Source: Synergistaceae bacterium (GTDB taxonomy: Bacteria; Synergistota; Synergistia; Synergistales; Aminobacteriaceae). Taken from it: 37,335 bases of DNA. The notes beneath the pieces were generated by a model. It was not told where the DNA came from. It saw only the letters and a program-made list of their open reading frames with translations, and ran no database searches. The position numbers and the translations under genes were made by a program. Positions 5,070 to 10,956 of the stretch are shown here, one piece after another. The DNA is taken from positions 1 through 37,335 of the forward strand of contig JAFSKV010000081.1 in the NCBI GenBank assembly GCA_017448795.1. Direction: 5' to 3'. Positions within the stretch are counted from its first letter, which is position 1. Every line of letters begins with the position of its first letter.

Positions 5070-5630
5070 TCACCTGCACAGTGCCTCAGAGTACAGGTAC
5101 AAACCCCGTTTCGAGTTCGGGTGAATGTGGTCGTTGAGGTAACAGCCTGCTGTTGACGCGAGAATTTCAGCGGAGATTATTCCGTTCACGTCAAAATATT
5201 CATGGCCTTCATGAGCGCAATAATCCCTGAGAGCCTGAGAGTAAGACTCATTCTTGGCGAGCTTCTCGGAGTAAGTCAGCGGGGTAAACGGGTCTCCGTC
5301 ATCTGACCACCACGGGGCAATGTACGCGAACTTCGCGCCGGGATTCTTGTCCCTGATGAGGGCTTCGAGGGATTGCAGGCGTGAGACGTATTCGCCCGGA
5401 GTCATGGCGCAGGTACTAGGGTTGCAGTAGCGAACATCGTTTGTGCCGACCGCGACAACGTACAGCCCCGCTCCTGTTGAGGCGATTTCGTCAGCGTGGT
5501 CGATGAGAGTCTTGACCGTTCCGCCCCCGAATGAGACGTTGTGAATCTCAGCGGTGATTTGCCCTTCAAGCGGCTCATAGTAGGGATACCCGCCGTTCCT
5601 CGAACCCTGAGTAACCGAGTCGCCCGACAA
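5070..5630 (-). CDS. SGNH/GDSL hydrolase domain, probably the displaced C-terminal half of the CapA gene
   Basis: This 186-residue frame contains the SGNH blocks: GDSVTQG (nucleophile Ser), FGGGT (Gly), VVAVGTNDVR (GxND) and NDHIHPN (catalytic Asp and His). Such hydrolases deacetylate glycans or cleave esters on surface polysaccharides. The only local start is a TTG inside the motif itself (5628-5630). The beta-strand that normally precedes GDS (S-V-C-F-V-G) is encoded in the overlapping CapA frame. Removing one G from the GGG at 5623-5625 would join both frames into one CapA-SGNH protein. Whether this product is made alone is doubtful. Confidence 0.7.
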   Translation of the reverse strand: MSGDSVTQGSRNGGYPYYEPLEGQITAEIHNVSFGGGTVKTLIDHADEIASTGAGLYVVAVGTNDVRYCNPSTCAMTPGEYVSRLQSLEALIRDKNPGAKFAYIAPWWSDDGDPFTPLTYSEKLAKNESYSQALRDYCAHEGHEYFDVNGIISAEILASTAGCYLNDHIHPNSKRGLYLYSEALCR

Positions 5631-7080
5631 AGCACACTGACCCCTCCGAGTTCACCAGCCTCATGAAGCGCGAGTCCCTCACGTCAGCGGCAAGCGGTGA
5701 AACTTTCTCGCGGACATAGCCCCGTTCGTCAAAGTGCCAGCGTTCACGGACCATGTCGAAATTGAAGGCGTGCCCGAAGACTGTCGACGATATTACCCGG
5801 CAGACTTCCTCAGCGCGGGCAAGGTCATACGTCGTGAGGCGCGGGGATAATTCCCCGTCAGCAATCACACTCAGCGGTACAGGCCTGTAGTTGCCGTTCA
5901 TGTGCGCGCATGTCCACATGGGGATGATGCTTCCGCCGATGACTTCGCGCTTGTTACGGTCAATGTAGACTTCAACGAGGATGCTTGCGTCGCCGTTATA
6001 CTCGCGGTAAATGTTGGCGTAATTTCCCGGACACCACGCCGTGAAGACTCTTCTGCCGTTTACGGTTGAGATTTCTGCGGGCTGTACTGAGTGGGTGTGG
6101 TCGGCAAGGATTATGTCAGCCCCAAATTCCCGGAAGATTTCCCCCCAGGCTCGCTGGTAGTCGTCGGGCTTAGTGAGGAACTGCTCGCCCATGTGAGGCA
6201 GGACAACAATGAAATCCGGCTCTAACTCTTTTGCGCGGTCAAAGTCTCTCCTTACGCTTTCTTTGACGGCCTCGAAATTCTTGCTTGACGGTGAGACGAT
6301 AAGCGAAGTCAGGAAGCTCAAGTCCTTCGAGCGCAGAAGGTCATCCTCAGTGCAGCCGTTGCTCCCGTAAGTGTAGGACAAGACGGCGAACTTCAGCCCG
6401 GATTTCTCGATGAGCCTCACGCTGTGTGTGTCCTTGTCGTCCTGAGACCTGTAAGAGCCTGTGTGAGGGAGTCCGATTCTGTCGAGAACGTCGAGAGTCC
6501 TCAATGCTCCGTCCCTGCCCTTGTCGAGCAAATGATTGTTGGCGGTCGTAACCAAGTCAAAGCCCGCTCGCTTCACAGCCTCCCCGAAAGTGTCCGGGTA
6601 ATTCAGCGCAAGTGTCTTGCCGTCCCCGTAATTGCTCGTGGAATACCCGGCCTCACTGCCAGCCATGGGACCCTCGAACACTCCGATTGCTAGGTCTGCT
6701 GACTGTATGTATTCCCGCGTGAACTCGAACATGTCATCATAGCTCCCGTTTCCGCGCTTCACTTGGTCTTCAAGAAGTATCAAGTCCCCGCAGAATAGTA
6801 TCCTGAAAGCGTCCTGAAACTCGCGGCGTTGTGTTCCGGCCATGACTGGAGGAATGAAGAAATTCCCGGCCTCGCTGCCGCTGCGGATTCTCTTGGCTAT
6901 TTTCCATGCCCGGCGAAGAATATACTCCAAGAACTGGACGGCCTTGTTGTTGTTGTGGGACTGAAGCCAGCGTATGACGGCGGATTTTATTGCTGACTTG
7001 TTGATGCTTACGGTGATGAATCCGGCGTATACAGACCAGACTCCGGACATGACGATGACGGCAAGCAAAACTTTCTTCAT
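5575..7080 (-). CDS. CapA-like (PGA_cap) metallophosphatase-fold protein, frameshifted near its 3' end
   Basis: Of 501 residues, the N-terminus has a membrane anchor or signal (MKKVLLAVIVMSGVWSVYAGF). From about residue 90 the poly-gamma-glutamate CapA domain follows: FCGDLILLED, the central TANNHLLDKG (N-N-H), LPHMGEQF and ILADHTHSVQP. CapA-domain proteins are calcineurin-like metal-binding enzymes tied to capsule or polymer export. The final 20 or so residues (RLGYSGFEERRVSLL) have no family character. They are read after the point where the downstream SGNH frame takes over, so the natural product is probably longer. The start overlaps the stop of the acetyltransferase gene by 4 bp (ATGA). 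Confidence 0.82.
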   Translation of the reverse strand: MKKVLLAVIVMSGVWSVYAGFITVSINKSAIKSAVIRWLQSHNNNKAVQFLEYILRRAWKIAKRIRSGSEAGNFFIPPVMAGTQRREFQDAFRILFCGDLILLEDQVKRGNGSYDDMFEFTREYIQSADLAIGVFEGPMAGSEAGYSTSNYGDGKTLALNYPDTFGEAVKRAGFDLVTTANNHLLDKGRDGALRTLDVLDRIGLPHTGSYRSQDDKDTHSVRLIEKSGLKFAVLSYTYGSNGCTEDDLLRSKDLSFLTSLIVSPSSKNFEAVKESVRRDFDRAKELEPDFIVVLPHMGEQFLTKPDDYQRAWGEIFREFGADIILADHTHSVQPAEISTVNGRRVFTAWCPGNYANIYREYNGDASILVEVYIDRNKREVIGGSIIPMWTCAHMNGNYRPVPLSVIADGELSPRLTTYDLARAEEVCRVISSTVFGHAFNFDMVRERWHFDERGYVREKVSPLAADVRDSRFMRLVNSEGSVCFVGRLGYSGFEERRVSLL

Positions 7081-7625
7081 GACACCTGTTCTCCTTTACG
7101 TGAAATATAATCAGCCCAGCCGAAAAATTCCGGGGGGTTGCTCCTGTGATGCTCAAAGATTCTTGGCGCGGGCATAACTACTGTGCAGTTGTCCGGGATG
7201 TCGCACGTTACGACGCAGTTAGCCCCTATGCAGACGTTGTCGCCTATGCGGACTCCTCCGATGATTTTTGCCCCGCACCCTATGAAGACGTTATCCCCGA
7301 TTTTGGGCGCGCCTTGGTTCTTGCTGCCTTCGAGAGTGTTCGAGCCTATTGTTACCTGATGGAAGATTGTGCAGTTCTTGCCGATTTCTGCCCCTGCTGA
7401 GATGAATATTCCTGAGAGGCCGTGAGGAAAGACGGGGCATGAGGCTATGTGTGATTCTACAGGGACTGAGGCGTTGTGTATGATGAGATACCTCTTGTAG
7501 AGGAATGAATACATCAGGCGGGTGAAGCGTCTGCTTTGCGGGATTTTCTGGCGGATTGACCAGAATCTTGCGGGGGAAAAATCTCCTGTGAGGATTACTT
7601 TGATGATGTGAAGAAGCCTCCTCAT
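7077..7625 (-). CDS. Serine acetyltransferase-like hexapeptide-repeat acyltransferase
   Basis: The 182-residue protein has a left-handed beta-helix with hexapeptide repeats (ISAGAEIGKNCTIFHQVTIG, then IGDNVFIGCGAKIIGG and IGDNVCIGANCVV). This is the arrangement in serine O-acetyltransferases and polysaccharide acetyltransferases that use acetyl-CoA. Lying directly upstream of a CapA-SGNH unit, it more likely modifies a surface polymer than makes cysteine, but the sequence alone does not decide. The ATG at 7625 is preferred over an upstream in-frame start at 7652 because AGGAGG (7633-7638) is correctly spaced. A 55-codon leader frame ends on this ATG (ATGA overlap). Confidence 0.8.
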   Translation of the reverse strand: MRRLLHIIKVILTGDFSPARFWSIRQKIPQSRRFTRLMYSFLYKRYLIIHNASVPVESHIASCPVFPHGLSGIFISAGAEIGKNCTIFHQVTIGSNTLEGSKNQGAPKIGDNVFIGCGAKIIGGVRIGDNVCIGANCVVTCDIPDNCTVVMPAPRIFEHHRSNPPEFFGWADYISRKGEQVS

Positions 7626-7656
7626 CGCGGAGCCTCCTGCGTCAGGGCGCAATTAT

Positions 7657-9030: not shown

Positions 9031-9106
9031 GGCCCCGTAGCTCAGTGGATAGAGCGACTGCCTCCTAAGCCGTAGGCCGGGTGTTCGAATCACCCCGGGG
9101 TCGCCA
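9031..9106 (+). tRNA. tRNA-Arg (anticodon CCU)
   Basis: The 76-nt cloverleaf has acceptor GGCCCCG pairing with CGGGGTC, a D-arm GCTC/GAGC, anticodon loop CTCCTAA (anticodon CCT), T-arm GGGTG-TTCGAAT-CACCC, and an encoded CCA at 9104-9106. It decodes AGG. The anticodon stem ACTGC/GCCGT contains one T-C mismatch (positions 29-41). No clear terminator follows, so the transcript may continue into the MATE gene. Confidence 0.95.
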
Positions 9107-9141: not shown

Positions 9142-10956
9142 ATGACGAATCAGAAATCATCCGACATAATCCCCGCAATGTTCTTCTCGACAGCCGTAAC
9201 AATGATACTGACGAATCTCACGGAGTATGTCTCTGTTCTTGTTGACGGCATAATCACAAGCAGGTTTCTCGGCCATGAAGCATATTCGGCAATATCCCTC
9301 TTCAACCCCCTCATCGGCCTTCTCCTCCTCGTCAGCAACGCTATCACTACAGGCTCTCAGGTAGAAATCTCGCGTTCACTGGGGGCGGGCGAAAGGGACA
9401 GGGCAAATTCCGCCTTCTCGATAACCCTTCTCATCATGGCGTTTGCGGCGTTCGTCATCGTCATGGCCTGGCTGATGATTCCCGGCTGGCTTCTCAGGAT
9501 AACGGGAGTCTCTGCGGAAAATCATGCTCACCTGTATTCTGACATGGCAGGCTACGTGAACGGCTACATGTTCGGAGTGCCGTTGCTGATGGTTATTCAG
9601 GTGATCGGCCCTGTTGTCGTCATGGACGGAGGAAAGACTCTCTTCACCGCCTCAATGGCCGCTATGGGTGCCTGCGATATTGCGTTTGACCTCGTGAATG
9701 TGTTTGTCTTTCACGGCGGTACATTCGGGATGGGTCTGGCAACGTCATTGTCATACTTGGTACAGCTCGCAATATTGATGCCTCATTTCTTCGGGAGGAC
9801 GTGCGGCTTTGGTTTCACGCTGAAGTCATTTTCACCCGGACAGCTTGCGGATATAGTGAGGGGAGGCTCGCCTACATTCGTCAGGAAAATCGCCAACCTT
9901 CTGCGCGACCTCTTCGTCAACCGCTTCAACCTCTCAATCGCGCTCACAACAGCCGCAGTAGCCGCAAGAGGAATCCAGACTGACATAAACACTGTGCTTT
10001 TCTGCTTGGGACTGGGTATCGGCAAGACACTTATCACGATGACGGGGATATATTACGGCTCAAATGACAGGCTCGGAATAACCCGGCTTTTCTCGTACTC
10101 AATGAGGCTGTCGGTGATTCTTTCTGGGACTGTGGGAGTCGTCATGTTCATTGCCGCGCCGTTCATAGCGGGGGCATTCTCCAGTGAGCGTGAAGTCGTG
10201 GAGCTTGGGACATTCAGCATAAGGTGCATGGCATTCGGGATTGTGCCTGACGTTGTAGTTTCCGCAATGATGGGATACTTGCAGGGCATCAACAACAGCC
10301 GCTTCCTCAACGCCGTTAACATTCTGGACAGGCTGGTTATCCCTGTGGTTTGCGCTCTGGTTCTTGGGACGTTATTCGGCTCGAAGGGCATAATGGCATC
10401 GATAGCGGCCGGGAAAATCCTTCTCATGGTCTTTGTGATGGTGATAATTTTTGCGCGGACTTGGAGGCGGGCAAAGAGATTCCCGGCGAGGCTTGAGGAT
10501 TTCATGTTCCTTCCTGAGAATTTCGGGGGCAGTGAGGGCGATAACATTTACGCGGCGATAAGCACGACGGATGACGCATTGAGTGAGAGCAGGAGGGCCG
10601 GGGAGTTCTGCCTGAGTCATGGTGTGAGCAGGAGGACGGCTGAATTGATGTCGCTGTTCATTGAGGAGATGGCCGTGAATATCGTCAAGCATGGCCGTGT
10701 GAGGATGGGGCGGAAATTTGCGGTCGACTATAGGCTGTCGCTCAACGGCAACACTCTGTGCATGACTCTCCGGGACTGCTGCCAGCACTTTGACCCTGTG
10801 GCGTTCTACAGGACTCACGAGCCGGGTAAGGAGTCCCCTGAAGACATGCTGGGAATAAGCATAGTGATGAAGCTGGCGAAGGATACACGTTACTTCAGCG
10901 CGTTCGGCAGCAATAATATAATCGTGAGCATTGACAGCGGGGAAGCCCGGCCATGA
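9142..10956 (+). CDS. MATE-family transporter fused to a C-terminal GHKL (HATPase) domain
   Basis: Residues 1 to about 450 form a MATE efflux protein. It has twelve predicted membrane helices, an N-terminal SVLVDGIITSRFLG segment and the related LITMTGIYYGSNDR segment in the second half. MATE proteins export cationic drugs or metabolites by Na+ or H+ antiport. Residues from about 465 to 604 form a histidine-kinase-like ATPase domain. The N-box is E508-E509-x3-N513-x3-H517, and DMLGISIVMKLAKD forms the G-box end, as in RsbW/SpoIIAB-type anti-sigma kinases. The two parts are in one uninterrupted frame. AGGTG (9129-9133) precedes the ATG. The ATPase half suggests sensing or regulation of transport, or a tethered regulatory partner. 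Confidence 0.88.
   Translation: MTNQKSSDIIPAMFFSTAVTMILTNLTEYVSVLVDGIITSRFLGHEAYSAISLFNPLIGLLLLVSNAITTGSQVEISRSLGAGERDRANSAFSITLLIMAFAAFVIVMAWLMIPGWLLRITGVSAENHAHLYSDMAGYVNGYMFGVPLLMVIQVIGPVVVMDGGKTLFTASMAAMGACDIAFDLVNVFVFHGGTFGMGLATSLSYLVQLAILMPHFFGRTCGFGFTLKSFSPGQLADIVRGGSPTFVRKIANLLRDLFVNRFNLSIALTTAAVAARGIQTDINTVLFCLGLGIGKTLITMTGIYYGSNDRLGITRLFSYSMRLSVILSGTVGVVMFIAAPFIAGAFSSEREVVELGTFSIRCMAFGIVPDVVVSAMMGYLQGINNSRFLNAVNILDRLVIPVVCALVLGTLFGSKGIMASIAAGKILLMVFVMVIIFARTWRRAKRFPARLEDFMFLPENFGGSEGDNIYAAISTTDDALSESRRAGEFCLSHGVSRRTAELMSLFIEEMAVNIVKHGRVRMGRKFAVDYRLSLNGNTLCMTLRDCCQHFDPVAFYRTHEPGKESPEDMLGISIVMKLAKDTRYFSAFGSNNIIVSIDSGEARP

Follow-up and report, generated by a model that had tools for sequence, protein, structure and literature searches.

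The window, by which we mean the whole stretch of 37,335 nucleotides analysed here, carries on its forward strand one unbroken open reading frame that runs from an ATG at 9142 to a stop codon ending at 10956 and encodes a protein of 604 amino acids. The sequence AAAAGGTG precedes this ATG and is a putative ribosome site of the gene, whose start lies 35 bases past a tRNA gene. The features of the locus are the following, with residue counts taken from an alignment of 75 fusions:

9031..9106, plus strand: tRNA-Arg (CCT), directly 5' of the fusion gene, a neighbour outside the module
9142..10956, plus strand: MATE/GHKL fusion gene, 604 aa (single ORF; Pfam MatE and HATPase_c_2; paralogues and orthologues)
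9142..10461, plus strand: MATE domain, residues 1-440, with hydrophobic peaks that merge to about 12 (Pfam, family profile, hydropathy)
9244..9246, plus strand: Asp35, conserved acid in MATE helix 1 (65/75 fusions, five of the other ten being alignment gaps; 32/32 plain MATEs)
9688..9690, plus strand: Asp183, second conserved MATE acid (68/75 fusions)
10462..10506, plus strand: junction, residues 441-455, with a basic start; the soluble domain after it begins with a conserved LPExFG-like motif (sequence; alignment)
10507..10953, plus strand: GHKL domain, residues 456-604, RsbW/SpoIIAB-like (Pfam, profile, domain model, structural comparison)
10663..10692, plus strand: N-box E508-E509-M-A-V-N513-I-V-K-H517 (E509 75/75, N513 56/75, H517 52/75)
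10771..10791, plus strand: G1 box R544-D545-C-C-Q-H-F550, with the Gly replaced by Cys (alignment)
10852..10854, plus strand: G2 glycine G571 (66/75 fusions)

The in-frame fusion of a MATE protein to a GHKL domain, proposed in an initial annotation made from the sequence, was confirmed by this single reading frame and its two Pfam domains. The 5' neighbour of the fusion is a DUF362-ferredoxin gene, and on the 3' side a sub-threshold fucosyltransferase match was the sole hit. At the locus of a full-length orthologue, 88% identical to the window protein (L009, a near-identical copy of L064), apparently the same DUF362-type gene was recognised by eye upstream, with an [FeFe]-hydrogenase-like gene on the opposite strand downstream. 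From this comparison of neighbours, the window fusion appears to be a single-gene unit. Elsewhere in the window, at 5070-7652 on the minus strand, genes for a hexapeptide-repeat acyltransferase and a PGA_cap protein and a GDSL lipase-like ORF stand in a row.

The MATE half matched MatE (PF01554) at 8.2e-24, with 84.6 bits against a cut-off of 24.9. Its score with TIGR00797, 92.8 bits, lay under that model's own cut-off of 147.4, which fits the divergent MATE branch seen in the tree described below. A hydropathy scan gave 19 overlapping peaks, merged by hand to about 12 before residue 440, in agreement with the 12 helices that had been annotated. With a family profile built from 21 fusions, the final MATE helices matched the BH2163 transporter (4lz6, 5c6o), presumably DinF-BH, at 3e-7. 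Asp35 and Asp183, whose positions we take to be those of the MATE membrane acids for ion coupling, were both kept in 62 of the 75 fusions, and 5 of the 13 others have gaps at Asp35. The best reading of this half is that of a predicted secondary exporter of the MATE family (MOP superfamily); MATE topology places the C-terminal domain in the cytoplasm.

In the soluble half, residues 483-584 matched HATPase_c_2 (PF13581) at 1.6e-6, with 28.6 bits against a cut-off of 27.4, and the NCBIfam RsbA model scored 15.9 bits against a cut-off of 210. The N-box E508-E509-x3-N513-x3-H517 is present exactly as had been described, and both of its glutamates are invariant among the 75 fusions, E509 being the presumed catalytic Glu. 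The G-box-like end noted at the same time stands in part: D545 (the G1 Asp, kept in 71/75) and G571 are there, but the G1 glycine of the DxG motif is absent and C547 takes its place, at a position occupied by Cys in 51/75 fusions and by Gly in 17/75. N513 was lost in 19/75, and E509, N513, D545 and G571 were jointly intact in 53/75, the window protein included. As to a loss of ATP-site residues, which would speak against a nucleotide-binding domain, the main residues are in place and the G1 glycine is the exception. Because of this cysteine ATP binding is not assured, and we call the domain RsbW-like rather than a proven active member of the kinase family.

A model of the soluble domain alone reached a pLDDT of 64. 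Foldseek searches with this model returned SpoIIAB first and RsbW next, with LvrC among the matches and a best E value of 3.5e-5. Structural alignment placed RsbW 6m37 at the top (Z 12.6), followed by 6m36, UsfX 8ih8, SpoIIAB 1l0o and the RsbW domain 3ke6, and the first eleven rows were RsbW, SpoIIAB, their kin and LvrC, with Z between 11.1 and 12.6. An RsbW domain of Rv1364c was among the matches at Z 9.2-12.6, and SiaB (6kko) reached 9.2. As histidine kinases ranked under the RsbW group, a plain histidine kinase was rejected, and the annotated RsbW-like ATPase domain was borne out, being closer to RsbW/SpoIIAB than to histidine kinases (Z 9.2-12.6 versus below 8). At the sequence level, RsbW 6m36 was found by the 21-fusion profile with an E value of 0.0017, and SpoIIAB entries had E values between 0.4 and 0.6; a search of solved structures with the domain sequence by itself gave no RsbW, which was obtained by the profile search alone. 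Full-length structure prediction from three sequences gave a pLDDT of 40, a model too poor to use for the MATE helices or for contacts between the MATE and GHKL halves to be read.

The suspicion that the junction could be an assembly artefact was dismissed, since orthologues and paralogues of equal length exist. The genome to which the window belongs holds five MATE/GHKL matches, one of them cut by a contig end, including paralogues 53% and 46% identical to the window protein. A search for further copies, made with a profile of the MATE C-terminal helices plus the GHKL domain, gave junction-spanning matches in 31 of 185 genomes of the window's phylum, 25 of the 31 within its own genus, and in 23 of 391 genomes sampled from the class of a rumen Oscillibacter MAG, which is itself counted; the genus Oscillibacter is a member of the Clostridia. 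A phylum-wide sample around the same MAG gave matches in 9 of 398 genomes, two of which reach the GHKL part alone. Viral contigs, scanned once with a single peptide pattern, gave no relative. Comparison of the window gene with its orthologue gave dN/dS ratios of 0.17 (MATE half) and 0.18 (GHKL half).

A tree built quickly from 107 MATE domains set all 75 fusions to one side of a branch with an SH-aLRT of 98. Two rows entered as plain MATEs lie on the fusion side, one a fusion cut by a contig end (L073) and the other a fusion split into two ORFs (L196). A single old origin of the fusion is suggested by this topology and not shown by it, the tree being quick and containing long branches. In several same-genus genomes (L105:5594-7395, L106:1375-3196, L107:216-2041, L028/L093), the MATE/GHKL gene is broken into two overlapping ORFs after roughly 90-115 residues, which may reflect a frameshift common to these genomes or a true division of the gene.

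The genes around the fusions were compared with those around plain MATE genes by means of neighbour profiles made from the proteins of the loci, within a range of 5 kb. Eighty fusion loci were entered, near-identical copies (L009, of L064; L028, of L093) having been left out, and 77 remained once three with targets cut at contig ends (L057, L073, L110) were dropped. The 38 control loci were hand-picked: 22 came from the Oscillibacter set (22 of its 23 genomes), and the window's genus supplied the other 16, of which six lie in the window's own genome. The Oscillibacter-set controls were mostly the best-scoring plain MATE of each genome, a few being skipped for odd length, a contig end or a nearby fusion. 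Two controls had no plain target and were dropped (L192, L197), leaving 36. One of these two, L197, is a fusion with STAS and PP2C genes nearby; it stands outside the 77 and is included in the residue counts, the tree and the clustering. The split fusion L196 was kept among the 36 controls, where it adds to the count of separate GHKL genes only.

STAS genes were found at 16/77 fusion loci versus 1/36 controls, PP2C genes at 16/77 versus 0/36, either of the two at 21/77 versus 1/36, and APH-like kinase genes at 12/77 versus 0/36. The loci are partly related, which makes the unclustered p values too small. When they were clustered at 60% identity, with L196 and L073 left out and the plain MATEs inside fusion loci added, STAS was present in 15/44 fusion versus 1/22 plain clusters (p 0.006), PP2C in 13/44 versus 1/22 (p 0.016) and either in 17/44 versus 2/22 (p 0.011); the PP2C-positive plain cluster is the L160/L161 pair, which lies beside fusion cassettes by its coordinates. 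The association stems mainly from the Oscillibacter-type set (STAS 12/29, PP2C 13/29, against 1/36 and 0/36 in controls). In the window's phylum, STAS (4/48, p 0.28) and PP2C (3/48, p 0.18) did not differ significantly from the control, and APH-like kinases, present at 6/48 loci, were weakly significant (p 0.03). The co-occurrence with STAS or PP2C genes that the initial annotation had suggested looking for was seen in the Oscillibacter-type set and was not significant in the window's phylum. Neither gene lay within 5 kb at 56/77 fusion loci, many of them on short contigs. Separate GHKL genes were not enriched (12/77 fusion loci versus 5/36 controls). NRPS-type neighbours were rejected as a general feature, as they were not above the control (8/29 Oscillibacter-type loci versus 5/36, p 0.14).

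At some loci the genes form cassettes. One of these (L150) reads STAS, PP2C, MATE/GHKL and then a single protein with STAS, APH and HATPase_c_2-type GHKL domains. Two others (L079, L082) read STAS-PP2C-MATE/GHKL, and further clear cassettes were seen at L167, L164, L165 and L162. Closer to the window protein, at 44% identity, L010 combines STAS, MATE/GHKL and a STAS-APH protein whose kinase is TIGR02172/APH-like; in the tree, L010 branches off first within the window's clade. In five window-type fusions, 46-57% identical (L058, L065, L067, L069, L076), the APH-like kinase is a separate gene 3' of the fusion, and these are five of the six loci counted above for the phylum. Fusions of STAS to APH were found at L010, L140, L142, L143 and L150, and of STAS to an AMP ligase at L092. 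The motif SSAGLR occurs in 24/24 of the STAS rows listed, two of them from control loci; its second serine is presumably the phosphorylated one, after SpoIIAA and RsbV. The cassette PP2C proteins have long N-terminal regions, in which a domain scan of the L164 protein found HAMP.

The fused domain is not uniformly preserved in these cassettes. Among 22 fusions with STAS or PP2C nearby, four have lost N513 (L162, L165, L167, L091); of all 19 fusions that lack N513, 15 have neither gene nearby. Three of the four cassettes (L162, L165, L167) contain a separate RsbW-like gene; at the fourth the stretch ends early, and a like cassette on contig C1 of the window's own genome has such a gene. Separate GHKL genes, counted by hand, also lie near 9/18 cassette fusions that keep N513.

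At the window locus and that of the 88% orthologue there was no STAS, PP2C or APH neighbour, and none of the genome's STAS, SpoIIE or sigma70 matches falls on the window contig. The annotated lack of adjacent sigma, STAS or phosphatase genes is therefore correct for the window, but it is misleading as a general statement, since relatives have partners next to them and further ones are encoded on other contigs of the window's genome. This genome encodes a STAS-APH protein (contig C39), two free STAS proteins (C1, C18) and three SpoIIE matches. On C1, downstream of the contig-cut MATE/GHKL gene, come genes for STAS, for an LPG_synthase_C protein and, judged by eye, for a probable DMT-type transporter; further on there is a membrane protein whose GHKL end is degenerate, then two PP2C genes, the RsbW-like gene and an AAA/cNMP protein. 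Since the window gene stands alone, a STAS partner of its product, if there is one, acts in trans, and the two free STAS proteins and the STAS-APH protein would be the candidates. On C31 (L062:2543-3814), a further protein ends in a C-terminal STAS domain, which stands behind a part that by eye looks like a methyltransferase.

We favour, at a probability of roughly 0.55, the reading that the window protein belongs to a transporter-tethered, sigma-free partner-switching module, in which an exporter carries an RsbW/SpoIIAB-type domain predicted to be a serine kinase and to bind STAS. The exporter would probably be the output of the switch: a SpoIIE-type PP2C would dephosphorylate the STAS protein, which in its unphosphorylated form would dock on the exporter's GHKL domain and switch the exporter; the GHKL domain itself, or the separate RsbW of a cassette, would then phosphorylate the STAS serine with ATP and cause release. 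STAS binding, phosphorylation, the gating of transport and the direction of the signal are what we infer from the fold, the residues and the neighbouring genes. Phosphorylation-based control, as first annotated, is plausible in that part of the relatives are encoded beside STAS and PP2C genes and the ATP-site residues are largely kept, but the Cys at the G1 glycine qualifies it. Docking may also bring an enzyme to the exporter, since certain STAS proteins carry one in the same chain (an APH-like kinase or an acyl-CoA ligase). A doubtful extension makes this the main purpose, the RsbW-type domain being a phosphorylation-dependent docking port for STAS-tagged enzymes (the APH-like kinase, the acyl-CoA ligase and perhaps the methyltransferase) and SpoIIE-type phosphatases timing the coupling of enzyme and exporter.

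The direction of the signal could be the reverse, with the MATE ligand setting kinase activity and phosphorylated STAS, or a STAS-fused enzyme, as the output. The four main ATP-site residues, intact in most fusions, and the enzymes fused to STAS agree with such a sensor, as do CbrA-like transporter-histidine kinase fusions, which are regarded as sensors. We consider this possible and lean against it: the four cassette fusions that lost N513 are probably not kinases, and the long N-terminal regions of the cassette PP2C proteins could receive the input instead. That three of the four N513-less cassettes carry a separate RsbW-like gene argues for the fused domain as a docking site and for the exporter as output, but the argument is weak, as such genes also lie near half of the cassette fusions that keep N513, and the preference comes from few cases. 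It is unlikely that the GHKL half is a relic or a stabilising tail with no nucleotide-dependent function. The Cys at G1 in 51/75 fusions, the loss of N513 in 19/75 and the solitary position of the window gene would suit a relic, whereas the invariance of E509, D545 in 71/75, the dN/dS of 0.18 over this half and the STAS/PP2C association in part of the family would not.

RsbW and SpoIIAB are anti-sigma factors, and the GHKL fold matches theirs, so a membrane-tethered anti-sigma factor, holding a sigma factor until a STAS antagonist frees it, was the other role to be weighed. Sigma70 genes were searched for in 12 genomes, picked for clear cassettes and completed by the window's own genome and G369. 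None lay within 10 kb of any of their 26 fusions, although some contigs end sooner, and the nearest on the same contig was about 14 kb away. Three sigma70 matches were found in the window's own genome, of which the top one is probably the housekeeping factor, as against five MATE/GHKL and five further HATPase_c_2 matches. On these two grounds we regard the anti-sigma role as very unlikely, and the anti-sigma-type partner first put forward was set aside for want of a sigma gene close by.

The nearest known systems are those of RsbW/SpoIIAB with RsbV/SpoIIAA (STAS) and RsbU/SpoIIE (PP2C), which share the GHKL fold and the sequence family of the fused domain; STAS and PP2C genes also lie beside part of the fusion relatives. 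Unlike RsbW/SpoIIAB, the window GHKL domain is joined to a transporter, and no sigma factor gene was found nearby. SiaB-SiaC of Pseudomonas aeruginosa has an output other than a sigma factor, and to our knowledge neither its kinase nor that of Btr is joined to a transporter. In the portions of the sources available, the Btr switch of type III secretion in Bordetella and the Syp switch of Vibrio fischeri biofilm are sigma-independent partner switches (PMC8256260, PMC10120452), and the domains given for SypE do not join the kinase to a transporter (PMC10120452). Btr and Syp, as far as these portions go, and also SiaB-SiaC share with the module proposed here the logic of kinase, STAS protein and phosphatase, and the target of the switch is something other than a sigma factor. 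SulP/SLC26 transporters bear a C-terminal STAS domain whose role is described, in the accessible part of the source, as not fully explored (PMC8256260). On that description they are likewise secondary transporters with one partner-switch half on the cytoplasmic end, the STAS half in SulP/SLC26 and the kinase half in the MATE/GHKL proteins. The SulP and MATE transporter folds are unrelated.

Two further comparisons come from general knowledge. CbrA-type proteins combine an SLC5 transporter and a histidine kinase and so resemble the fusion in having a transporter and a GHKL-bearing kinase in one chain; they differ in pairing a two-component histidine kinase with SLC5 where the fusion pairs an RsbW-type domain with MATE. 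The mycobacterial MviN/MurJ carries a cytoplasmic pseudokinase domain on a MOP-superfamily carrier, like the fusion a carrier of that superfamily with a kinase-fold regulatory domain, although a Hanks-type pseudokinase instead of GHKL. Among the titles and abstract openings covered, with few subscription papers, there was no description of a MATE protein joined to an RsbW-type domain, and a search by term of PMC12088040 gave nothing relevant to the fusion. The architecture may well be listed already in domain databases.

Partner switching is known mostly for sigma-factor control, with few other outputs; widespread transporters bearing the kinase half would make transport a likely output of such switches, and the MATE/GHKL family would mirror the SulP transporters that carry the STAS half. 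The cassette of about four genes at L150 offers a testable system. In one clade of the tree (L109, L155-L158, L163, L164, L166), a large AMP-ligase protein adjoins the fusion in all eight loci, and an exporter beside NRPS or NRPS-like genes could bear on the release of peptide products. The NRPS protein at L155:7869-14000, the clade member examined domain by domain, reads A-T-C-A-T-reductase, which we take to be the layout of peptide-aldehyde synthetases.

Several other arrangements were seen around the relatives. The proteins at L150:7952-9541, L143:9702-11309 and L140:7139-8701 unite STAS, APH-like kinase and RsbW-type domains, that is, both switch halves around a small-molecule-kinase fold (for L150 also by Pfam). 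Three loci (L150:3732-4316, L148:6250-6864, L167:2411-2995) hold a companion protein, about 195-205 residues long and containing an EEL motif, that is possibly a degenerate GHKL protein; scans of the L150 and L167 copies gave no Pfam match. At L110:5379-6579, three GHKL copies stand in tandem, the first ending a contig-cut MATE, and are followed by a STAS gene. Finally, a Bmp/PnrA-like protein with an extra N-terminal part directly adjoins the fusion at L140:1831-3681 and L145:8661-10553.
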